Virus record (IMG/VR): IMGVR_UViG_3300032242_000398
Span: 1 to 20,553 of that record
Length of the DNA stretch: 20,553 bases
Reading direction: 5' to 3' (one strand)
Origin: a virus
The position numbers and the translations under genes were made by a program. Below the pieces are notes generated by a model, which was not told the DNA's origin, searched no databases, and worked only from the letters and a program-made list of their open reading frames with translations. Below are positions 657 to 13,121 of the stretch, one piece after another. Positions within the stretch are counted from its first letter, which is position 1, and each line of letters opens with the position of its first letter.

Positions 657-2326
657 CTTTTTGTTTCCAACACAAACAAAGATCGTTGAGAAGTAGAAGG
701 GGCAGTTATGCCACTTAACAAGTCTTGCAGTTGATAATAATAAGTGTGGGTTCCAGCAGATGGATTATCAGAATAAGCAAAAGAAGAGTTTTGACTTGTC
801 ATCAAAACTGTTGAATCACGAACAATTCTTAAATTTGCTGGACTAACATTAAGACTGCCATCAAGGCCAGCAACTGGATTGCTGGCTGCTGCCACATAAA
901 CTTGATAGCCAGAAGTTGTAATAGTTACAGATTGAATTGTTACCCAATTATTTGTGCTGGTAGACGAACTAATTGAACCAGAAGTAAATGCACTTGCGGT
1001 AACAGTTGCAGAATTTGTTGCAATATTGCTGGTGTTGACCACGTTTCCATTTAGCGTCATTTGAGTGCCGTTAAATGAAATATTGGTAGAAGAATTGCCA
1101 AGAGCAAAAGTTCCATCGCTATTGATTACGCCACCAGAACCCGTCATGGTTGAGCCAGAAATAGCAGGAGTACTACCAGATTGCAATGTGCCTCTAGCAT
1201 ACAAGTTGTTTAAGTATGCGCTTCCTGATGTACGAGAAATGTAATATCCAACAGTACCCCATGTTGATGGATTGCTAGAAACTGGAGGGTTTGAGCCATT
1301 CCAGTTGTCGGAACGAATATCTTGAAAAACGCTTGCAGCAATAGGCCCAACCCATGCTGTTGTGTTTGGGGAAACTCCATTAATCGTTACAGAAGAACTG
1401 TTGTAAAGACCTTGGATATACCAAAGAACATCACCAACAGAAACTGAAGGAGCAGTGCCAACCCATCCACTTGGAATTGTTGCGCCTGAAGTCGGAGTTG
1501 TAAATGTTGGTGTAGATGATGACTGACTTTGAGTTTTATATGCAGTAATTGCACTCAGTCCATTATTTCCGTTTGCACCGTTTGCACCGTTTGTTCCATT
1601 GGCTCCATTTGTTCCGTTGTATGCCAAGTTATAAATTGCATACGATGTATTTGTCCAATCACAAACGGATGTTGTTAAATTAACAGATGCAGACAATGGA
1701 ACTGTAATTGCCCAAAGATAATCCCCAGGAGTCGTATCTGATGCTGGAGTTATTGTCCACCCTGAAGGTGCTGTATACAGCCCCGTTGCCCAAGTGAATG
1801 TTGTAGTTGTAGTTGGACGAGTGGGTGGAGTTGAGCTAGATGTCCATTTATAAATTGTTGGATATGCTACTTGTTTTCCTTTTCCAGTAGTAATCACATC
1901 CAAATCAATTGAATTTCCATCTTCTTGTAAATAATCAAAACTTGGCGCTGCTGTTGATACAACAAATTGAATTTGCCTTCCACCAGCAGTTTGATAAAAC
2001 AAAAAATTTGTTGTACCAAAACCGCTTGCTGTTTTGTACCAAATGTAATCGGCAGGATTAGTAGATTCAACGGAACTATTAGTGTTTCGCAATCCGTAAT
2101 AACTGCGGTTTGTTGGAGTGTTGCTGAAATTTACAGAACCATCAGCACTATCTGCATATTTGACCGCCAAATATTTGTACAGATAAGCAATGATTAATCC
2201 TGTTGGACCAGTAATTTGTCCTGTGTTTGGGTCTGCTGCCAGATTTGCGCCAAAGTTTGCCAATAAATAATTGACAGCTTCCGAAACTTCGGAAATATTT
2301 GGATTGGTATCAAGGGCGAATGGCAT
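653..2326 (-). CDS. Tail fibre / tail tip protein with collagen-like spacer
   Basis: A 557-residue protein rich in Ser, Thr, Asn and Gly. The N-terminal ~60 residues are helical-looking and probably anchor it to the tail. A short collagen-like run (GTNGANGTNGANGANGNNG, residues 238-256) lies between two related segments (about 155-232 and 262-330), which share PSGW...P..PGD.LW and a later W. The segment at about 375-430 (LYARGTLQSG then FALGNSSTNISFNGTQMTL) resembles the part after the central domain in lambda gpJ-like host-specificity proteins. The C-terminal ~110 residues look like a beta-sandwich. Its start overlaps the upstream stop as TAATG, and it is followed directly by an assembly chaperone, which supports a receptor-binding fibre role. 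The exact family is unassigned. Confidence 0.75.
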   Translation of the reverse strand: MPFALDTNPNISEVSEAVNYLLANFGANLAADPNTGQITGPTGLIIAYLYKYLAVKYADSADGSVNFSNTPTNRSYYGLRNTNSSVESTNPADYIWYKTASGFGTTNFLFYQTAGGRQIQFVVSTAAPSFDYLQEDGNSIDLDVITTGKGKQVAYPTIYKWTSSSTPPTRPTTTTTFTWATGLYTAPSGWTITPASDTTPGDYLWAITVPLSASVNLTTSVCDWTNTSYAIYNLAYNGTNGANGTNGANGANGNNGLSAITAYKTQSQSSSTPTFTTPTSGATIPSGWVGTAPSVSVGDVLWYIQGLYNSSSVTINGVSPNTTAWVGPIAASVFQDIRSDNWNGSNPPVSSNPSTWGTVGYYISRTSGSAYLNNLYARGTLQSGSTPAISGSTMTGSGGVINSDGTFALGNSSTNISFNGTQMTLNGNVVNTSNIATNSATVTASAFTSGSISSSTSTNNWVTIQSVTITTSGYQVYVAAASNPVAGLDGSLNVSPANLRIVRDSTVLMTSQNSSFAYSDNPSAGTHTYYYQLQDLLSGITAPSTSQRSLFVLETKR

Positions 2327-3936
2327 TAGAAAGCGTCCTCAACAACAGTGGCTTGCCAGTTCATGGCTGTCAAATTCCAATGGTTTGTTGCATCATTGGA
2401 TTCCACTTTAACTGCAACAGTACGCACAGCATTTTGCTGAGTTGTTACCCAAGGCGTATTGGTGTCAATCAGGGTTGTTCCTGTTTGACCATACGTTGGA
2501 GCTTGAGCGGTGGAGTTTGCACCACCAACAGTGATGTCAATAGCGCCAGTACCTGCAATCTCGGGAAGCAAACGGTGTGTGTACACCTTGGAGCTAAATG
2601 GGACAACACCATTTGGTGTCTGCAACTCAAGATTGGTACGTTCAAATTTGCAAGGAATGCTATTGCCATTGAACGAGTTGCCAACAGCAGTTTGAAGAAT
2701 TTTTTGGTTTGTGGAGTTAGATTGTGCGTACACAACGCAACGAGAAGACAAATTAAATGCACCACTGACTACCTTTGGACCTTCAGTGCCCATGCAAGCG
2801 TTCTGAACGGTCTTAGGAGCGTTCCAAATGTTGAGGTCATACCGATAGGACAACATCTTGTTGCACCACCCTGTAGACGTTAAATCAGGATAGTAAATTT
2901 CAATCTGGTATTTTTGAGTGTTGTTCACCATGAACAAACGGCTGTAATACGCCGGATTCAGATTGGAAAAGAAATAATCTTTCACCTTCTGATTGCCAAT
3001 GGAATTAAAATTTGCCCCATCAAAAACCCAAATGTCACGGGCATCAATCCCATAGACATTGGCATCAGTATTGGTCCAGCAATTGTTATTCAACAAGCCT
3101 CGACCTTGGTTAAGCAAACGAACACCAAAAATAGGTGCAGTGCTGTTTTGATAGGCAATCGGGCTAAAAACAACTGTGTCCCAATACGAGCAAACGTAAA
3201 AATTGCCACCCAAGAAAAAGCCATCCACAATTGGACCGCGAACAGGAATTTCTTGTTCGTTGGCTACGTTGTTTAAAGTTGGTGTCCAAGTCCCAGGAAT
3301 GCCTGTATTGGCAAAAGCTTGCGACCAACGAACAGTTGTGGGGTAGTTATATGAAGTGCCACCAACAATTTCTGTTAAATTTCCAGCAATCAAAATGTTT
3401 CCCACGTTTGGAGAACAATAGTTGCGGACAAATCCAGCCGTTGTTTTGGTTACTCCAGGAGTGTAATTCCATTGAGCATCAGACGTTACAGTCAATTCAT
3501 TTGCTGTTTGCAACAAATACATTGGGTTTGACAATGTATCGTTGACAAAGAAAACACTACCAACCCAAGAAAATGTGATGTTGATGTCTTCGGTGTAATT
3601 TGGCAAAGTCACCGAAGGATTTGCACCAACACCGGGGGTAATGTTGGTAATGCCAGCAGTGGTTACCAAATACCAGCGACCATTATTGGATGTGTCACGA
3701 GTAGCGACAATGTAAACCCAGTTTGTTTCAGAGCGAAAACCACCCTCAACAAAAATGGTTTGATTTGGGATCGCAGAAAGAATTTCTTGTTCGCCATAGA
3801 TTTTTTGAATTCCACGAACATCGGTTTCTACGTTGTAACCAGAGTTATATTCATTTGGAGCCAAAGCATTGCTAGGCACATCCGGTGTAAAGGACATGCC
3901 TACAAATGGGGTTTTGATTCTCTGGTAATCGGCCAT
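2326..3936 (-). CDS. Probable tail hub/nozzle (tail tube) protein
   Basis: A 536-residue, beta-rich protein with many Trp, Tyr and Asn residues and no membrane segment. The N-terminal MADYQRIKTPFVGMSF and the repeated strands around GNILIAGNLTEIVGG, VDGFFLGGNFYVCSYWDTVV and DARDIWVFDGANF resemble the propeller-like nozzle or stabilisation proteins of short-tailed phages (functional analogues of T7 gp12 or P22 gp10). The stretch YQIEIYYPDLTSTGWCNKML followed by SYRYDLNIWN is typical of that class, where assembled units record a measured state in a chain of strands. In such phages the protein sits below the portal-adaptor and forms the DNA exit channel. The gene starts 1 base after the glycosyltransferase stop, behind GGTGG. 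The assignment rests on resemblance and position, not on an exact family match. Confidence 0.6.
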   Translation of the reverse strand: MADYQRIKTPFVGMSFTPDVPSNALAPNEYNSGYNVETDVRGIQKIYGEQEILSAIPNQTIFVEGGFRSETNWVYIVATRDTSNNGRWYLVTTAGITNITPGVGANPSVTLPNYTEDINITFSWVGSVFFVNDTLSNPMYLLQTANELTVTSDAQWNYTPGVTKTTAGFVRNYCSPNVGNILIAGNLTEIVGGTSYNYPTTVRWSQAFANTGIPGTWTPTLNNVANEQEIPVRGPIVDGFFLGGNFYVCSYWDTVVFSPIAYQNSTAPIFGVRLLNQGRGLLNNNCWTNTDANVYGIDARDIWVFDGANFNSIGNQKVKDYFFSNLNPAYYSRLFMVNNTQKYQIEIYYPDLTSTGWCNKMLSYRYDLNIWNAPKTVQNACMGTEGPKVVSGAFNLSSRCVVYAQSNSTNQKILQTAVGNSFNGNSIPCKFERTNLELQTPNGVVPFSSKVYTHRLLPEIAGTGAIDITVGGANSTAQAPTYGQTGTTLIDTNTPWVTTQQNAVRTVAVKVESNDATNHWNLTAMNWQATVVEDAF

Positions 3937-3937
3937 G

Positions 3938-5002
3938 TTAATCCACCGTGGTTGGCTCCGTCATGTGCTGTAAGTTTCCAACAAGACGGCTATCAGTTGG
4001 ATTGAATTCTAAGGCTTTTTTGCATAATTCAATAGCTTCATTCTTGAGGCCAAGATTCCATGCTCCAAGGGATGCCAAGTCCCAAGGCTTTTCCGTCCAT
4101 ACAGATGGGTCCATCGTATAAACAGCTTGCTTGTCAGTTATGTGCAAGGCTTGCTTGGCAGATGAATAGCACTCAACCCACATGCTTCTGCGATAACAGA
4201 ACATGGCAAGATCAACCCAAGGTTCACGAGTTCCTGGTGCTTCAGCACAAGCCAAACGAAGCCACTTATGAGCTTCCCATTGGTTGCCTAACTCGTCATA
4301 GGCTTTGCCAAGCAATCTCATGGCATAGCAGCGTTCATTTGCCCAATTGGCTTCTGGCATAGCCAAATAACGATTCAGGGCCTGTATGGCCTCTTCCCAT
4401 CGGTCGTAGAAGGTCAGTTCACGGGCATGATAGAAAGCATTTCGTGGGCAGTGAGCATCTTCCTTGATTGCAAGTTCCAGCAAAGGCATATATTGTCCAC
4501 GGGACTTGGTGGGGTCTGGGTGGTGGCTAACCAGCAACATATCCGTCTGGGCATATATTTCCTGAATTCGTCCGTCAGGGCGAGGGTACTCATGAACAGG
4601 ATGATGCCAATGGTAGCCATGACGATGATGGATTTTTTCATAGAAAAAACTGATGCCACAGCCCCAATCAAATTTGTATCGAAGACGGGTCGTATCATCT
4701 TTCCATACCCGTTCAATTTCTTCACGCCATCCCGGCTCTAGCACTTCATCCAAATCTAGGGAAATGCAGACATCGTAGTCACCGGGAATTAATGCCAATG
4801 CTGCATCACGAGCTTTGTCAAAACGCCAAGGTTTGATGCAAATATCATGCACCTTAGCCCCGCATTCCAAAGCTAAATCAACCGTTTTATCAGTTGATCC
4901 AGTGTCAGCAATCAAAATCAAATCAGCATCTTTGGCTGAATCACAAAAACGCTGAACAAACTGTTCTTCGTTCTTGCTGATGGCGTAAACGGCAATTTTC
5001 AT
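3938..5002 (-). CDS. Family 2 glycosyltransferase with C-terminal TPR-like repeats
   Basis: A 354-residue protein with a clear GT-A N-terminal domain. It has the opening strand and loop KIAVYAISKNEE (residues 2-13), the nucleotide-sugar loop ADTGSTDKT (32-40) and the metal-binding DxD site at D83-L-D85 in SLDLDEVLEPGW. A His-rich stretch HWHHPVHE (131-138) follows and is common in this subgroup. From about residue 186 to 340 there are helical pairs such as AFYHARELTFYDRWEEAIQA and AWNLGLKNEAIELCKKALEF, consistent with TPR repeats that could bind acceptor or partner proteins. No signal peptide or membrane segment is visible, so it should be cytoplasmic. It sits between a fibre chaperone and the nozzle gene on the same strand. 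Donor and acceptor cannot be told from sequence: a virion protein, host surface glycan or DNA are all possible. Confidence 0.9.
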   Translation of the reverse strand: MKIAVYAISKNEEQFVQRFCDSAKDADLILIADTGSTDKTVDLALECGAKVHDICIKPWRFDKARDAALALIPGDYDVCISLDLDEVLEPGWREEIERVWKDDTTRLRYKFDWGCGISFFYEKIHHRHGYHWHHPVHEYPRPDGRIQEIYAQTDMLLVSHHPDPTKSRGQYMPLLELAIKEDAHCPRNAFYHARELTFYDRWEEAIQALNRYLAMPEANWANERCYAMRLLGKAYDELGNQWEAHKWLRLACAEAPGTREPWVDLAMFCYRRSMWVECYSSAKQALHITDKQAVYTMDPSVWTEKPWDLASLGAWNLGLKNEAIELCKKALEFNPTDSRLVGNLQHMTEPTTVD

Positions 5003-5031: not shown

Positions 5032-5487
5032 TTATGGAGCATCAGGCCAAGTGATTTCCCAAGGAAAGCCAGCTTGATTGCTGATGTCTCGCAAGGCTTG
5101 ACGGTATACAGCCCATTCAAAATCTTGAGGCGTATTGCTTTCCAATGCTTTAATGACTCGCCAATCACATTCAACCAACTTTGCATCACGTTGAGTGCGA
5201 ACGGACTTAGCTTGTTCTGCGTCTTCAACAGCAATTTGTTCGGCATCCATGTTGACCAAAGAATAATTGGTAAACCATTGTCCATTGACTTGCTGCACCC
5301 CATCTCGATATGAAATTTGATAACGTGCAGGTTGTATTTGTGGGCCTTCTAACACGGGATCAACACCAATGACCTCCATGATTTCAGGTGTCAGTTGGTC
5401 GTAGGATGGACCGTTGTTGGCTTGCAAATACGAGCGCAGTTGGCTTTCGTACATAACTTGACCTGTGGCGCGAATTCTGATTTCCAT
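5032..5487 (-). CDS. Tail fibre assembly chaperone (first copy)
   Basis: A 151-residue protein. Residues 98-151 carry the assembly-chaperone signature: RDAKLVECDW, WAVYRQALRDISNQAGFPWE and the final WPDAP. The N-terminal half (MEIRIRATGQVMYESQLRSY, then IGVDPVLEGPQ and YRDGVQQVNGQWF) matches a leader segment often seen in phage fibre assembly proteins. AAGGA about seven bases before the ATG gives a good ribosome site. It lies immediately downstream of the 650-residue fibre gene, nine bases after its stop, so that protein is its probable client. It is paralogous to the chaperone at 249-656 in the C-terminal domain, while the N-terminal halves differ, as expected if each recognises a different fibre. 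Confidence 0.85.
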   Translation of the reverse strand: MEIRIRATGQVMYESQLRSYLQANNGPSYDQLTPEIMEVIGVDPVLEGPQIQPARYQISYRDGVQQVNGQWFTNYSLVNMDAEQIAVEDAEQAKSVRTQRDAKLVECDWRVIKALESNTPQDFEWAVYRQALRDISNQAGFPWEITWPDAP

Positions 5488-5496
5488 GATGTGTCC

Positions 5497-7449
5497 TTAT
5501 GCAATTGCAAGATATGCAAAAGTAACGCCGCTTGCGTTGATGTTGGCGGGTGCGCCAGATTGAATTGTAAATCCAGTACTTGTTGTAAAAATGTAATTAG
5601 CATTGACTTCAACAGCGGTACTGTTCATCAACAAATAAGGGTCAGTGCCAGATACCATTCCACGAGCAGTGTCCCAAAAATACCAATCCGCAGAAACCAC
5701 ATCAATGCGTTTTATCAACACAAAACGTGCGCCTGAAGAAAAACCACAATCAATTGTTTGTGACGCTCCAGTGCCCGTGTAACTTCCTACTTTTGAAACT
5801 CCCGATAAGGTTGCAAAAAGATAATTTGTATATAAAACTCCCGCAGAATTTACAAGCGCATCATTGTTTGCAAAAAAAGTAGTTGCTGTTGGGGCAGCAT
5901 TCCAAAGACTGGATGTTGTGGGTGCGGCATTTGAATTTAAAATCAAATATTTTGTATATCCAACAGGAGCAAAATATACGGCCCAATTTATGTTGTTTGT
6001 CAAATTTTTGACAATCATTAATTCAGGAATAACACCAAGATTATGATTAAAAGTTGATGGAACTCCACCTAGGCCAGTGTATACAACCTGATCAAAAAAT
6101 CTTGGCGCACGTTTAAATCCCAATAAAGAATAAAGAGCGCCTGAAGTGTTTTGACCAAGCCCAATATTACTAGCGTTCATTAATCCAACTGGACCAGTAG
6201 TTCCAGTGCTACCGCCTTGAATTGATTGTCCAGTATTTGATGGAGATGTAATGAAGGCATCGTTGTAACGCAAACGATCAATAAATGTTGGGCCAGCTTC
6301 CACAAAATTTCTATCAGTGTAAATACCAAGATCAATCGTAATTGGAAGACTTTTTGTAGTTGCAGCGCCAGTGCCAGTGTAAATTGCAGGAGAAAACACT
6401 TGAGAACCGCTTGTAGGAATTCTCATTGGTCCACGCCGAATGGCAATATAGATATATGTAGAACTTGCAACAAAAATTGAACCGCCTGTTGCAGACACAG
6501 TAAAACCAGTTGCTGATGGATAAATTTCTCCATTGTCTACAGTTTCTATGGTCGCTGTATTTGGATTTAAAGATTGCCCATCTGTTGTAGTCATGCCTCG
6601 CATGACATCCCACAAAATCCAATTTCCTATAACGCCTGGACGCCTTATAAGCACCCATTGAGGTTCATAACCAAAATTGACAGTGGCAGTGTTGCTGCTA
6701 CTTGTAGTAAATGTGCCGCAAGAAATTACATTGTCATTTCCTGTTGGCCCAAAACCTCCAGCATTATCCGCAAATAAATATGCAATATAAGCAGCACCAC
6801 TTGTATTTACGCTTGTATTTGTACCAAGAGAAAAAACAGTGTTTGTGGGCGCTGTACTATTCCATGCAGTCGGGTTGTTTGCTTGCGCTGTAGTTGTGTT
6901 AAGAGTTATTGAATATGCAGCACTTGTTAAATTTTTATGGTAACAAATCCACGATCCCGTTGTGCTTACAGGGCGCACAATTATAAAACCTGGGACACTT
7001 CCAAGGTTGTGTGGAATTGTTGTATTTGCACCTGTTCCGGTGTAAGTAACAATGTCAAAAAATTTTTGTTTGGCAGCAAATTGCCAATCTACATACAAAG
7101 CACCAGAGTTGTTGTAGTTGCTGTCAGTTCCAATCGTATATCCTGAAGAACTAAATGCTGTTAAGCCTTGAGTATCTGTGGTTTGTGCGGCAGTACTACT
7201 GCTGATAAATGCTTTGGTTGCACCACGAACAGTATCTGTTAATTTGTTTGTTGTTGCCGCAGAACGTGATTTTATCCAAACCAAAGATTTATTTGCAACA
7301 GAATCAATGTTTGTGGTTATTGTGTTAGATGTGTTTGTTCCAGTTCGCAACCATGTTTGAAAAAAATCTTCAATGTAATTGACAACAGTTGGCGCTCCAC
7401 CAACATATCCATCAATACTGCTGTTTCCAGAGGTTTGTTGAAGTGGCAT
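5497..7449 (-). CDS. Tail fibre/appendage protein built from tandem beta domains
   Basis: A 650-residue protein made of related segments in tandem. Segments with YTGTG...IPHNLGSVPGFIIVRP at about residues 131-228 and FDQVVYTGLGG...HNLGVIPELMIVKN at 452-548 alternate with segments holding LIRR...W..WD..RGM at 240-338 and 553-650. A further related segment is at 55-125 (LVWIKSR...DTVRGATKAF). These resemble the repeated beta domains found in tail appendages of environmental phages (DUF7483-like). The protein is rich in Ser, Thr, Asn and Ala, with no catalytic motif seen. The start lies one base after the stop of the collagen-like fibre gene and has no visible Shine-Dalgarno sequence, so translation probably depends on re-initiation. 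An assembly chaperone follows directly. Role inferred: receptor-binding fibre or a structural part of the tail. Confidence 0.7.
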   Translation of the reverse strand: MPLQQTSGNSSIDGYVGGAPTVVNYIEDFFQTWLRTGTNTSNTITTNIDSVANKSLVWIKSRSAATTNKLTDTVRGATKAFISSSTAAQTTDTQGLTAFSSSGYTIGTDSNYNNSGALYVDWQFAAKQKFFDIVTYTGTGANTTIPHNLGSVPGFIIVRPVSTTGSWICYHKNLTSAAYSITLNTTTAQANNPTAWNSTAPTNTVFSLGTNTSVNTSGAAYIAYLFADNAGGFGPTGNDNVISCGTFTTSSSNTATVNFGYEPQWVLIRRPGVIGNWILWDVMRGMTTTDGQSLNPNTATIETVDNGEIYPSATGFTVSATGGSIFVASSTYIYIAIRRGPMRIPTSGSQVFSPAIYTGTGAATTKSLPITIDLGIYTDRNFVEAGPTFIDRLRYNDAFITSPSNTGQSIQGGSTGTTGPVGLMNASNIGLGQNTSGALYSLLGFKRAPRFFDQVVYTGLGGVPSTFNHNLGVIPELMIVKNLTNNINWAVYFAPVGYTKYLILNSNAAPTTSSLWNAAPTATTFFANNDALVNSAGVLYTNYLFATLSGVSKVGSYTGTGASQTIDCGFSSGARFVLIKRIDVVSADWYFWDTARGMVSGTDPYLLMNSTAVEVNANYIFTTSTGFTIQSGAPANINASGVTFAYLAIA

Positions 7450-7450
7450 A

Positions 7451-10399
7451 TTATTTGTATTGCGTGAGTGAAGCCAAAACAGTGTAAGTGGCAGATGCGG
7501 TTTTTACTATCGCATAACGATAAACATCAAGCCCAGATGCGTTACCAACAGTAGGTGCGCCGCCAATCCATTTTGGCGTTACAGCAGTTCCGTCAATTGT
7601 TACTGCACTGTTGTAATAGGCCGTAGCGCCTTGAGTTGTAATCAAAACACAAGTAACTGATTGACCAATTGCCAATACAGTATTCATGCTTGTAAGACTG
7701 CTAAATGAAATGTTCAACGTCCAGTTATTTGCAGCATTGGTTGTGTAATATTGCACCGATCCAGACTGTACATAGTAGTTGGTTGTAGCAGATGGAGCCG
7801 CAGCAACTACGTTAACAGTTTCATTGGAATCTAAAAATGTTGCGCCAAAAACAGCATTTGTTCCTTGTGGATAAAGGTTTACAGTTGTAATCAGTTGAGT
7901 TGCTGACAACTGCATTTTGTAAGCGCCTTTACTTTGCGTAAAGCCACCCACATACCATTGATGCGCGTTTGCAGAACCAGTATTGTCTGTTGCGTAAACC
8001 AAATTTCCTGTATAGCTGCTGTTCAATGCAGAGCCAAACAAATACGCTTCGTTGGGGCCAGTCACCGTGTAGGTGATATCAGCATATGTCGAACTGGTAA
8101 AGCCCATATCGGCCCAACCGTGAGCATCCGTACTGTTGTTGGCATAAGCCACAAAATCAGCCGAAGCACTGATGCCGTTTGTTGCGTTGTAAATATACGA
8201 TTGAATGTAGTTATTTATTGCACCAGTAACGCCCACGATTGGGTTTGTTGTGCCCCCAAGCAAAGCGTTAGAACCAACACGCATTGTTGTGCCATCAAAC
8301 TGCAAGTTAGCACTTGTAGTAAATGACCCATAATGAATGTAGTTTGCAGTAAACGAAGTTAAACCAGTACCACCGTTGGCAATAGCAACTGTACCAGTGA
8401 CGTTAGCCGCTGTGCCTGTTGTGTTTTGATTTAGTGTTGGTACATCAGCAGCAACAATTGCTCTGAATGTTGGTACGCCAGCAGAACCGTTAGGAGCGGC
8501 CAAAATGTAGTTTGCTGTTTTTGAAGCGTATGGGTTTTGAGTATCTCCATAACTTGCAGCCAAACTAATTGCTGGAGTTGTACCGCCAGAAGAGACAACA
8601 GGAGACGTACCAGTAACTGAAGTAACAGTGCCGCCAGAACCTGTAGCAGCAATTGTGATGCCTCCAGAACTATTGGTAATAGTTACACCAGACCCAGCAG
8701 TCAATGTGGTTCGAGTAAAACCTGTGCCGTTGCCAATGTCCAATGCGCCGTTGGCAGGTGTTGTTGTTAAGCCTGTACCGCCGTTGGCAATGGCAACTGT
8801 GCCAGTGACGTTTGCAGCATTGCCTGAAATGTTTCCACTAACTTGCGATCCTGGCAAACTTAATGCACTCAACGTAGTGATTGTTGAGTTGGTTGTTCCA
8901 GTAATGTTGGCTGCTGTACCTGTGGTGTTTTGGTTAAGCGTAGGAACATCGGCTGCTTGAATTGCAGCCAATGCAGCGTTTGTGCCATCAGAACGAAGGT
9001 AACGACCAGCCGTTTGAGTGCCAGTCAATGCAGTAATTGCAGCAGCTTGTGTTGTTTGTCCTGTACCGCCGTTGGCAATCGCTACTGCACCCGTAATAAC
9101 AGAAGCAGAAACAGACAAAGGGGTGGTTTGCTTGACAAAAATTTTGCCAACAGAAGCATCAACATAAGATACCGTGCCAACTTGAACTGCAATCCCCGTT
9201 GGAGGAATTGTGTTCATTAATTGACCAGCAGAATAAGGGCTGAGATACAGCACTTGACCCACCGTAAATGTGCCAGTGTTGACGTTATCAATACCACCTT
9301 GAGCAGTAACATAACCAATTGCACCGTTGGCAATTGAGCCATTTGTCAAACCAATTACAGCCGAAGTTGCAGCCACATCTGCTTTAGCCAAAGCAATGTT
9401 TGGGTATGTTTGACCACTTGATGTGCTAGTAATGTAAACAGGCGCACCGTTTGCAATTGTTGAGCCAGTATTGTTAATCACCTTGACTTGAATGTCTTGA
9501 CCAATATGAACAATAGCACTTGATGAATCATTAAAGTACGCCAAAGCATGAGCCGCACTGTCGTACCATAAACGACCTTCTGTATACGAGGGCGCAGAAA
9601 CTCCAGTCCAGCTTTCATAGCTGGTTTGAGTTGGCGTAGTTAGTGAAGGGCTTGTTGAAAGAACTGTGTTGCCAGTACCTGTTGATGTTGTAACACCAGT
9701 GCCGCCATTGGCAACAGGAAGAGCTGTACCGCTGTAAGTCAATGCCAGTGTGCCACTAGCAGTAATTGGACTCCCACTAACGGTAAAAATAGCAGGAGCA
9801 GTTAATGCTACCGAGGAAACAGTACCAGAACCTGTGCCGGGTGCGCCTGTAGGGCCAGTAGGACCCAAAGAACCCGTTGTTCCCGTGGGACCTGTAGAAC
9901 CCGTGGCTCCAGTGGCTCCAGTGACTCCAGTGGCTCCTGTAGGGCCTGTAGGGCCTTGAACAGTAGATGGCGCACCTGTGGGTCCAGTTGGACCTGTAGG
10001 CCCAGTAGGACCTGCAATTGAAGATGCAGCACCAGTAGGACCAGTAGGTCCAACTCCTGTGGGTCCGGTAGGGCCAGAAATTGTTGATGGTGCGCCTGTT
10101 GGTCCTGTTGGGCCATTTAATCCCGAAGTTCCATTAGCACCTGTTGGGCCAGTTGGGCCAGTTGTTCCTAAAGTTCCAGACGATCCTGTTGGACCAATAG
10201 AACCTGTTGGGCCAGTTGGGCCAGTTGGACCTGTTACACCAAAATTAACCGTACTTTGATAAAGACCAACAGTTTCAGCGCCTGAGTTTGCAACTACGGA
10301 ACCTGTTCCGCTATTGCCATACAGGCCAGATGTTTGGTTGCCAGGACTGGCAATAACATTGGCATCGGATGTGTTTCCGTAAAGACCGCTAGTAGCCAT
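7451..10399 (-). CDS. Collagen-like tail fibre protein
   Basis: A 982-residue protein with a mosaic layout. Residues 2-53 hold three ~20-residue repeats around GLYGN, GLYGN and GLYQS. Residues 54-190 are a collagen-like G-x-y region dominated by GPTGPTG. Residues ~200-700 contain at least four ANGGTG motifs and the twice-used [17 protein letters not shown], both common in phage fibre shafts. The segment [20 protein letters not shown] then VLYLSP (about 360-390) is another recurrent fibre domain. The C-terminal ~250 residues are non-repetitive and may form the receptor-binding or capping domain. GAGGT seven bases before the ATG gives a good ribosome site. It lies between the adaptor gene and another fibre gene. 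Collagen-like regions in phage fibres are known to form trimeric rods; receptor specificity is unknown. Confidence 0.85.
8394..8460 (-). repeat. Intragenic direct repeat, copy A (fibre shaft module)
   Basis: This 67-base stretch and 8898-8964 encode nearly the same segment, [17 protein letters not shown] plus flanks, in the same frame of the 982-residue fibre. The DNA copies differ at scattered, mostly synonymous positions, so the duplication is not recent or has been held by protein-level selection. The preceding VAIANGGTG module (about 8372-8410) also has a close copy at about 8779-8817. Confidence 0.75.
8898..8964 (-). repeat. Intragenic direct repeat, copy B (fibre shaft module)
   Basis: Partner of the stretch at 8394-8460, same strand and frame, encoding [20 protein letters not shown] instead of the ANVTG version. 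Both copies sit next to a TG(T/N) and ANGGTG module, so the shaft appears to have grown by module duplication. Confidence 0.75.
9830..10240 (-). repeat. Collagen-like Gly-Pro-Thr coding repeat
   Basis: Residues 54-190 of the 982-residue fibre are G-x-y triplets, mostly GPT, broken by short linkers such as [18 protein letters not shown] and GAPSTVQGP. At DNA level this is a degenerate 9-base-type repeat (GGACCTGTAGGCCCAGTAGG and close variants read on the plus strand). The repeat also keeps other frames open, which explains a Gly-Pro-Val-rich reading on the opposite strand that I do not regard as a gene. Such arrays can change length by recombination, which would alter the length of the fibre rod. 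Confidence 0.9.
10241..10396 (-). repeat. Threefold ~20-residue GLYGN repeat at fibre N-terminus
   Basis: Residues 2-53 of the collagen-like fibre read as three consecutive units: SGLYGN followed by NVIASPG, SGLYGN followed by SVVANSG, and VGLYQS leading into the collagen region. Spacing of the GLY motif is exactly 20 residues (positions 5, 25 and 45). The place, at the N-terminus where phage fibres attach to the tail, suggests a repeated anchoring motif; this is inference. Confidence 0.8.
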
Positions 10400-10407
10400 T
10401 TGTTACC

Positions 10408-11391
10408 TCACTTAAAGCTGTAGCGATAATTGCGGGGCTGAAATTCGGAAGTGAGGTGTTGATCCCCACCACGCCATTTGCCTTTGTAGTTCTGATCTTC
10501 AATCAGACCATAAGCGTCATCAAATCGACTAATCCATTTTTGAGCTTCTTCGACATTTTTGTTTTTGTCGTAATAAGCCCAAAGAGTGCCATACAAATAG
10601 CCTTCAGGAAAAGAAGACAAAATTGCATTGTTTTGCACAATTGGATATGTGGAAGATTGTGTTGGGCTAAATAAAAATGGAAACGTGCGTTGATAATACG
10701 CTTTGATTGTGACGTTTGCACCTGGGTTTGGCGTAAACACATAGTTAGGACCGACTTCAGAAAAAGAAGCACGGATAACTCGTGGTACACCAAATGGGCG
10801 AATGTACAGTTGGTCAATCATTCTGCGGCGAATGATTTCACGGTCACCAACTCGGTCATACACAATCCAAGGACCAAGAGCAGTAGCACCGGGAGGCTGA
10901 TTGGATGGAGCAGATTCTTGGAAGAACAGAATTGGGAAATTCATGTCCGCAGGAATCGGAGCCATGCCTTGAGCATCTGTTGTCAGAATTGTGGGGCTTG
11001 TTGCATCATAAGGATTTGAACGAAGAGAAGGCAACTCAATTGTTCGCATCTTCAGTTCAGCCATTTGAATGCAAGACTGAATTTCCAAAGATGATGTTGT
11101 TGGCAGCTTCAAAATTGCTGTCGGCAAACTTACGCTTGACCATGTTCCATCAGGATCATTGACAGTAATTGTGCTTGTTGAAACTGCGGTAACAGCAGCA
11201 AAAGGTCCCATGATGTTGGGACCAATAAAATCTCCAATCAGAACTGCGCTTGTGGGATTTGCTGAACAGGTAATAACTCCTGTGGTGGAGTTAAATGCTG
11301 TTGCGTTAATGCTGATGCTGCTGGGAATGGCCCCCACCCATTGGGCTACACGGCTAACAAGTGAGTTAGCGGATTGAATATAAAGGGCCAT
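10408..11391 (-). CDS. Putative head-tail adaptor protein (SU10-adaptor-like)
   Basis: A 327-residue protein without membrane segments. The N-terminal part (VSRVAQWVGAIPSS) is followed by a beta-rich insert at about residues 25-90. Helices and strands typical of phage adaptor proteins come next (IQSCIQMAELKMRTIELPSL, AQGMAPIPADMNFPILFF). The C-terminal part, PEGYLYGTLWAYYDKNKNVE then WISRFDDAYG, is the helical end seen in adaptors that dock under the portal ring (functional equivalents of T7 gp11 or P22 gp4). It is preceded by AAGGA seven bases before the ATG, and lies between the coat-protein region and the fibre genes, where such adaptors are found. Function is inferred from resemblance and gene order. 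Confidence 0.6.
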   Translation of the reverse strand: MALYIQSANSLVSRVAQWVGAIPSSISINATAFNSTTGVITCSANPTSAVLIGDFIGPNIMGPFAAVTAVSTSTITVNDPDGTWSSVSLPTAILKLPTTSSLEIQSCIQMAELKMRTIELPSLRSNPYDATSPTILTTDAQGMAPIPADMNFPILFFQESAPSNQPPGATALGPWIVYDRVGDREIIRRRMIDQLYIRPFGVPRVIRASFSEVGPNYVFTPNPGANVTIKAYYQRTFPFLFSPTQSSTYPIVQNNAILSSFPEGYLYGTLWAYYDKNKNVEEAQKWISRFDDAYGLIEDQNYKGKWRGGDQHLTSEFQPRNYRYSFK

Positions 11392-11963: not shown

Positions 11964-13121
11964 TTAAGCCAGGTAACGCTGGACTTGAGTGCTTGGACGA
12001 GGAGTCGTCACAGCAGCACCTGTTGGGCTGATAGCAGCCAACACAGCCACACCTGCGGGGTTACGCACAATCAGCGTACCTTCCATGATGTACTGGTCCA
12101 AAGAAGCGTCAGCAGAACTAAACACTTCGTTGTTTGGACCCAGTTCACGCAAGCTACCCCACTGGATGACGTCAGGGTTCAGGAACAGGGCAGAAGTGTT
12201 GTCTGCACCAGTTTGGTCCATAACCCAAGAATCGTCGATCTGGTAGGTGTAGTTGAAGTCACCTTCGTAAGTACCAATCGTATCGCCCTTGTCAGCAGGG
12301 TTGAAACGGTTGATCGAACGGCTGGTAGGCATCATGTCCGAGATGTGGGTACGCATCGAAGTTGGGACCACCATGTTGGTGATCTTGGCGTTGAAGCGTT
12401 GCTCGGCGGTAGTCACCAACTGCTTGTACAGGTAAGGGCTGAACTGTTGCAGGGTCACGCCACTTGAGAAAGTGAAGTAGCCCAGACCAGCGTTGCTCAA
12501 CAGACCGTTGAAAGGTTGGTTGGTGTTGGTCACGGCAGTGGTGTCGTTACCATCGCTGGTAGCCAAGTTCAGAACCGAAACGCCGTCAGTGTCGTTGCCC
12601 GAACGTGTACCTGCGAAAGAATACAGCGAACCGAAACGACGACCGTTGTTAGGCGAAGAACCTTGAGTGGCAGCTTGACCGGAGTACTTGATAGAAGCAC
12701 CGTCAGCGCGAACCATTTGCAGTTCAACGTCAAACATGATTTCAGTCAATTGCTTGACTTCTTGGTAGGCTTGTGGATCGCCACCAGCTTGTTCAACAGC
12801 ACGAGCAGTGCCAGTAGCACCAATCACAGTGGTGAAAATCTGGGTGTAGTTACCGCAGTTAGCACGGGTGTTGTCAGCAGCTTGCGAAGCAGCAACAGCA
12901 GCGCCTTCCAACTTGGCGTTCAGGGCTGGAGTACGGTAGTAATCCACAGGCCAGATGTGCAGAGTCGAATTGACTTTGCGCTTCTTGGACATAGCCATGT
13001 TAGTCAGAGGGGTACGGTCTTTAACATAGTTAGAGACGGTCATATCGAGGTCTTTGACCACGATGTCGGTGGTATACGAGCCGTTGCCGTTACCAAGGTT
13101 TGCAGAGGTGATTGTAGACAT
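11964..13121 (-). CDS. Major capsid (coat) protein, SU10/DUF5309-like
   Basis: A 385-residue protein. The N-terminal TPLTNMAMSKKRKVN followed by HIWPVD (residues 37-60) matches the TP...K....H.W..D pattern of the SU10-type coat family. Later elements agree with that family: GNYTQIFTTVIGATGTARAV (90-109), the helix EIMFDVELQMV, VVPTSMRTHISDMM, IGTYEGDFNYTYQIDDSWVM, and ALFLNPDVIQWGSLREL. It is expected to have the HK97 fold and to form the icosahedral shell with the scaffold encoded just upstream. The ribosome site AGGAG, six bases before the ATG, is the strongest in the window, as expected for the most abundant virion protein. The gene is more GC-rich than the fibre genes (52% in one 60-base line I counted, against 30-45% in fibre lines), probably reflecting codon choice for high expression. 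Confidence 0.88.
   Translation of the reverse strand: MSTITSANLGNGNGSYTTDIVVKDLDMTVSNYVKDRTPLTNMAMSKKRKVNSTLHIWPVDYYRTPALNAKLEGAAVAASQAADNTRANCGNYTQIFTTVIGATGTARAVEQAGGDPQAYQEVKQLTEIMFDVELQMVRADGASIKYSGQAATQGSSPNNGRRFGSLYSFAGTRSGNDTDGVSVLNLATSDGNDTTAVTNTNQPFNGLLSNAGLGYFTFSSGVTLQQFSPYLYKQLVTTAEQRFNAKITNMVVPTSMRTHISDMMPTSRSINRFNPADKGDTIGTYEGDFNYTYQIDDSWVMDQTGADNTSALFLNPDVIQWGSLRELGPNNEVFSSADASLDQYIMEGTLIVRNPAGVAVLAAISPTGAAVTTPRPSTQVQRYLA

Follow-up and report, generated by a model that had tools for sequence, protein, structure and literature searches.

Introduction

The closest described counterpart of the enzyme considered here is SgtA of Clostridioides difficile, a 358-aa protein that combines a GT-A domain with TPR repeats and whose gene lies beside bclA3 (PMC7157674). 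In vitro, SgtA places beta-O-GlcNAc onto Thr residues of Gly-Pro-Thr (GPT) collagen peptides of BclA3, spores of the knockout lose their O-GlcNAc signal, and the glycan has been suggested to mask peptide epitopes on spores (PMC7157674). GmaR transfers GlcNAc to flagellin, and its TPR part has been proposed to select the protein substrate (PMC9638930). Among viruses, mycobacteriophage virions carry capsid and tail-tube proteins glycosylated by phage enzymes, according to the passages of PMC12619734 and PMC11600133 that refer to Freeman et al. 2023, and a passage of the review PMC8968730 relates that Mimivirus has a collagen hydroxylase/glycosyltransferase with which it glycosylates its own collagen. 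This review also suggests that bacterial collagen, in which hydroxyproline is lacking, has its hydration network improved by sugars (PMC8968730). Collagen-like phage fibers are themselves known, and the recombinant phage collagen EPclA was stable without glycans (PMC3368898), a point against the function proposed below.

Here we compare with these systems a glycosyltransferase (GT) encoded in the tail module of a phage. The window analyzed is the entire 20.5-kb virus record, and its structural genes are nearest to those of an uncultured Manatee Spring podovirus, MW202484, with which the portal shares 76.5% identity.

Results

The GT gene and its neighborhood

The features considered are collected in Table 1. 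As the initial annotation had it, the GT gene is placed between a fiber chaperone gene and a 'nozzle' gene, with a PF16778 gene upstream and a phrog_3287 structural gene downstream. The name 'nozzle' is taken from that annotation, and the product is distantly related to a PaP3/LUZ24-like phage protein. The GT stop is 1 nt away from the start of the nozzle gene, and two genes separate the GT from the collagen fiber gene, which is the first fiber gene of the module. In a promoter scan of the window, matches were fewer than in shuffled sequences; terminator-like matches exceeded the shuffles but lay mostly inside genes, and neither kind of match was used as evidence.

Table 1 Features of the window considered in the analysis.
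Feature	Position	Strand	Basis and remarks
Virion structural protein ('nozzle')	2326..3936	-	phrog_3287; directly downstream of GT; backbone marker
GT-A (GT2-type) + TPR glycosyltransferase, proposed collagen Thr O-glycosyltransferase	3938..5002	-	354 aa; complete, ATG start
TPR-like helical repeats, GT residues 171-350, proposed acceptor-binding part	3953..4492	-	Pfam, AlphaFold2 model
Catalytic half of GT: ADTGSTDKT, DLD and conserved region up to residue 114	4661..5002	-	Motifs, invariant residues
Tail assembly chaperone	5032..5487	-	Phage_tail_APC, PF16778, 1.6e-18; directly upstream of GT
Second fiber gene (DUF7483)	5497..7449	-	GPT stalk absent; swapped independently of GT
982-aa fiber with collagen-like stalk, proposed acceptor	7451..10399	-	Pfam Collagen 4.6e-11; 13 GPTG motifs
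Collagen-like (G-X-Y) segment, fiber residues 54-190, proposed O-glycosylation sites	9830..10240	-	Mostly G-P-T and G-X-T triplets
SU10-type adaptor	10408..11391	-	Other flank of fiber module; backbone marker

Side observations were made at the capsid gene, opposite which long antisense ORFs are found both in the window (11964-13121) and at L352:7955-9004. At the place of the capsid, the annotation of MW202484 has a 'hypothetical protein' on the other strand, probably where the capsid gene should have been called.

The GT ORF is a real gene and not a chance one. That it encodes a complete GT-A enzyme, as had been read from the sequence, is borne out by a Pfam Glycos_transf_2 match at residues 8-103 (32 bits against a cut-off of 23.3, E 1.5e-7), by the motifs ADTGSTDKT (residues 32-40) and DLD (residues 83-85), and by the full length of the ORF; with a profile match above cut-off and a DxD motif, the enzyme belongs to GT family 2. 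Across 64 phage and bacterial homologues, D33, T34, G35, S36, D38, D83, D85 and E86 are invariant. The helical-repeat C-terminus also finds support, both in a TPR_14 match at residues 229-266 (24.5 bits against a cut-off of 23.5), with further sub-threshold TPR matches at residues 312-337, and in the AlphaFold2 model (64-sequence alignment, pLDDT 96.5, pTM 0.90), where a GT-A domain occupies residues ~1-165 and paired helices fill residues 171-348. The family phrog_13126, labeled 'beta-1,4-glycosyltransferase, moron', matches the protein end to end (E 6.9e-101). Purifying selection is stronger on the GT (pN/pS 0.11-0.19) than on the nozzle (0.19-0.29).

Among the relatives, the GT ORF exceeds its usual length by about 150-180 aa, reaching 517-532 aa, in L029, L041, L046, L115, L125, L453 and L503, a possible fusion with the preceding gene or a start-codon artefact.

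The initial annotation missed what is the key to this case, namely the Gly-Pro-Thr repeat of the first fiber. Over the whole 982-aa protein, the G-X-Y runs amount to 42 triplets, of which 19 are Gly-Pro-Thr and 27 carry Thr in the Y position. Such a GPT stalk is absent from the second fiber (5497-7449), from the nozzle and from the distal fiber.

Co-occurrence of the GT and GPT collagen in the same backbone

Relatives were gathered by three separate scans, using the GT, the nozzle and the adaptor. Contigs were retained if they spanned the region from adaptor to nozzle, and near-duplicates (99.5% nozzle identity) were dropped, leaving 67 contigs; loci pre-selected by the GPT pattern were left out of the co-occurrence counts. 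In the fiber module, the number of GPTG motifs ranges from 11 to 36 in the 35 contigs with the GT and from 0 to 3 in the 32 contigs lacking it (Fisher 7.5e-20). For GAT-type collagen, the DUF7483 fiber and the chaperone, the association with the GT across the 67 contigs is far looser. A six-frame search of the whole GT-lacking contigs, many of them ~41 kb, revealed no member of the GT family in any of the 32, and a GT2 enzyme of any kind in only three (L215, L221 and L229), which are the three with Ser-type collagen.

The measure used should be considered when referring to these counts. We initially scored collagen as any G-X-Y run of at least 8, which gave exceptions in both directions, and this measure was replaced by the GPTG motif count. 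The exceptions then vanished because the collagens of the GT-lacking contigs were of the GAT, Gly-rich or Ser type. As the GPTG measure was picked after the first results had been seen, the second backbone described below is the cleaner test. In addition, the contigs are related to one another, and simple counts are inflated by the recombination of fiber modules as blocks; the co-occurrence test was therefore repeated on trees, and evidence from bacteria and from the second backbone was drawn upon as well. Counted on supported branches, the independent pairs in which the GT and GPT collagen changed in step were 9 of 9 on the nozzle tree (p=0.004) and 6 of 6 on the adaptor tree (p=0.031). In these tree contrasts, neither the DUF7483 fiber nor the chaperone changes along with the GT.

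These results bear on the choice of acceptor. That the GT glycosylates some other virion or host protein, such as the chaperone, the nozzle or another fiber, with GPT collagen being only a correlated feature, would suit a TPR domain and a peptide-glycosyltransferase fold, which are compatible with any protein acceptor, and would also suit a GT gene that abuts the nozzle gene. We nonetheless consider this very unlikely, given that the nozzle, second fiber and chaperone are present in the same backbone with or without the GT and that the GPT repeat alone tracks it, GAT-type and Ser-type collagens not doing so.

A similar weighing applies to the host surface. In aquatic phage papers, GTs beside fiber genes are usually taken to modify it (PMC7029224; PMC10202952), and the PHROG label points the same way. 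Here, the GT would modify LPS, cell wall or exopolysaccharide and block superinfection, and its link to GPT would reflect the joint exchange of a host-range cassette, as the fiber locus does recombine as a block. Against this, however, the fiber and chaperone genes that intervene between the GT and the collagen gene are swapped without the GT following, the GT-GPT pairing is found again in bacteria, in phage DSL-LC01 and in backbones unrelated to this one (see below), and the enzyme has a TPR domain and peptide-glycosyltransferases as its fold neighbors. We thus regard the host-surface explanation as unlikely. The behavior of the gene also differs from that of an O-antigen or cell-wall GT, in that its presence follows GPT collagen and its bacterial relatives adjoin collagen genes.

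Directly before the nozzle gene of L215 lies a 162-aa ORF that is HNH-endonuclease-like by sequence (L215:7761-8249), and ORFs as long as this one are found at the same place in L030, L102, L116, L138 and L206.

Other phage backbones

Among contigs that reach 8 kb or more beyond the GT on the upstream side, a GPT-collagen gene was found upstream in 46 of 46 contigs of the same backbone and in 14 of 14 of other backbones, the latter from an unbiased scan; some contigs in these counts are near-duplicates, and loci fetched by the GPT pattern were excluded. Movement of the GT independently of the tail genes had been named as part of a result that would count against glycosylation of virion proteins, and such movement was not seen in these contigs. 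The second backbone is marked by an unrelated 160-aa protein. In its non-redundant set, all 31 contigs with the GT carry GPT collagen, which is missing in three of the four contigs without the GT. The Actinomycetia phage DSL-LC01 is of a different kind, with 129 kb, and in it a homologue 47% identical to the GT follows two GPT-collagen genes. More distantly, PaBG encodes a GT of 33% identity and, about 17 kb away from it, three adjacent collagen-like tail fiber genes (L434:38020-40634), and no collagen was found near the gene of the distant relatives in Lu11 and Alexandra.

The converse relation is weaker. L508 is a genuine exception: its 1679-aa fiber (L508:5407-10446) contains 41 GPTG motifs, yet the GT is absent from the contig, which is 13.3 kb long. 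We had also entertained the rule that GPT collagen always needs the enzyme, and dropped it, since an unbiased scan for the GPT pattern shows many such collagens without the GT or any GT2. Of 122 stretches with GPT collagen, 120 of which had been selected by the pattern, 15 carry the GT-TPR enzyme. Among 50 whole contigs with GPT collagen, many of them fragments, 32 have no GT2 at all. As many other phages have GPT collagen without the GT, the coupling is lineage-dependent.

Further genes were seen next to the GT in some of these phages. In DSL-LC01, a gene for a tryptophan halogenase (L351:13433-15004) sits after the collagen genes and before the GT. The GT of L134, and also that of L135, is directly preceded by genes for a sulfotransferase (PF13469) and an APS-kinase-like protein (7313-8916 in L134), hinting at sulfated fiber glycans.

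Ser-type collagen and accompanying enzyme genes

In the three GT-lacking contigs with a GT2, the collagen is rich in Gly-Tyr-Ser/Gly-Phe-Ser, and the slot of the GT is occupied by an unrelated GT2 of 322-323 aa and a methyltransferase, with a GT9-like gene in L221 and L229. Homologues of this alternative GT2 were found in nine loci of two backbones (L213, L215, L221, L229, L230, L499, L510, L512 and L515). Ser-type collagen (GYSGFSG) is present in 9 of 9, and GPT collagen and the GT-TPR enzyme are present in none. In these nine loci the GT2, of ~322-330 aa, comes with a methyltransferase (FkbM or class I), and five have a GT9-like gene, all in the slot taken elsewhere by the GT-TPR gene.

There is, in our estimate, about an even chance that phages run a matched-pair system, in which GPT stalks go with the GT-A/TPR enzyme and GYS/GFS stalks with a cassette of GT2, methyltransferase and GT9-like gene, and in which, in some phages, the sulfotransferase and APS kinase or the halogenase of the same slot elaborate the decoration. 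The fiber would then be a glycoprotein stalk with exchangeable chemistry.

Bacterial homologues

A single-sequence scan of genome contigs found no relatives, while an alignment-based scan of bacterial genomes yielded full-length homologues of 41-55% identity, mostly from Bacilli and Clostridia (Bacillota). For 34 of the 54 bacterial homologues with at least 2 kb upstream, a GPT-collagen gene lies on the same strand at a distance of up to 1.5 kb and is often the next gene, and Clostridial homologues of ~42-46% identity directly follow GPT-collagen genes. The GT of the window falls in a mainly viral branch, apart from the Bacillota branch. Grouping with host cell-wall GTs had been named as a result that would count against fiber glycosylation; the enzyme instead groups with bacterial enzymes encoded beside GPT-collagen genes.

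Glycosylation of phage DNA (hypermodification) is a known role of phage GTs, according to a passage of PMC12619734. For this enzyme it is extremely improbable, considering the late structural position of the gene, the TPR domain and the collagen genes beside the bacterial homologues; in the 20.5-kb window, which does not include the early region, no gene for modified-base synthesis was seen.

Two tandem GT copies occur in the bacterial contigs L373, L382, L386, L394 and L430, mostly with no GPT-collagen gene in reach, and their acceptors may differ.

Discussion

Proposed function

Because its relatives keep the gene only together with a GPT repeat in the fiber, the GT very probably acts as an SgtA-like protein O-glycosyltransferase on Thr of the collagen stalk of its own fiber (7451-10399). 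The activity of SgtA, the fold shared with SunS/ThuS and the sequence similarity to GmaR, when considered together, likewise point to O-glycosylation of stalk Thr as the most likely activity. The earlier proposal of virion-fiber glycosylation, with the TPR part guiding the choice of acceptor, is thus supported by the comparative data on GT-GPT coupling, and can be narrowed to one probable acceptor: a virion fiber stands, while Ser/Thr/Asn-rich fibers in general give way to a collagen-type Thr repeat, as it is GPT that tracks the GT.

In the mechanism that we propose, the TPR half would most likely hold the collagen-like chain of the fiber encoded by the phage itself while this chain is nascent or still unfolded, and the GT-A half would transfer the sugar, most likely GlcNAc from UDP-GlcNAc. 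The acceptor would be Thr in the Y position of Gly-Pro-Thr and Gly-X-Thr triplets, and transfer would precede folding of the stalk into a triple helix. The outcome may be a sugar-coated collagen stalk that is more stable, shielded, or both.

A specific function is thereby proposed for a widespread phage family, PHROG 13126, otherwise read as serving host-surface or DNA modification. The results suggest that phages of several backbones may use a dedicated enzyme to build glycosylated collagen tail fibers, much as spores do in the case of BclA, and the GT-GPT pairing would predict, from sequence alone, which phages glycosylate their collagen fibers. If this is true, sugar-coated stalks would matter in aquatic phages for the stability of the fiber, for adsorption and for host range, and the GT would be a compact enzyme with which recombinant collagen could be glycosylated.

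Comparison with known systems

Phage virion glycosylation, collagen-like phage fibers and GT-A/TPR glycosylation of collagen Thr in C. difficile are all already known, and it is their combination that is new to the open-licence literature searched, in which we found no earlier description of a phage collagen-fiber GT matched to repeat type. The initial annotation had called the function undescribed. This does not wholly hold, as SgtA acts likewise on spore collagen (PMC7157674), and applies to the phage collagen-fiber version within the papers searched.

The mycobacteriophage system is likewise phage-encoded and acts on the virion, but its targets are capsid and tail-tube proteins and not collagen stalks. 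The Mimivirus system differs in its lysyl hydroxylase chemistry, in belonging to a giant eukaryotic virus and in using a different enzyme. The nearest solved folds are SunS/ThuS (7msn, 7msp, 7msk; Foldseek E 8e-18, TM ~0.63-0.67, whole chain), which are also GTs acting on a ribosomal peptide, SunS coming from the SPbeta prophage. These, however, attach an S-linked sugar to glycocin peptides and share 16-22% identity with the phage GT, beside which no glycocin precursor gene was found, the neighbors being fiber, chaperone and nozzle genes. By sequence, the nearest PDB entry is Listeria GmaR (22ao, 7x9r; E 7e-7), which shares a GT domain, TPR repeats and a protein acceptor with the phage enzyme, but has 637 aa, an extra antirepressor domain and flagellin as its acceptor.

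The likeness to SgtA, as this enzyme is known here from its published description, extends further. Both proteins, of 358 and 354 aa, have a GT-A N-terminal half followed by a TPR C-terminal half within ~350-360 aa, both genes are coupled to a GPT-collagen gene, and both enzymes have a Thr-rich collagen substrate, proposed in the case of the phage GT. They differ in that the phage gene lies in a tail module, two genes from the collagen gene and in a mainly viral branch, and in that its proposed target is a virion fiber, while that of SgtA is the spore coat. The GT looks like a phage branch of the SgtA enzyme type, used on virion fibers.
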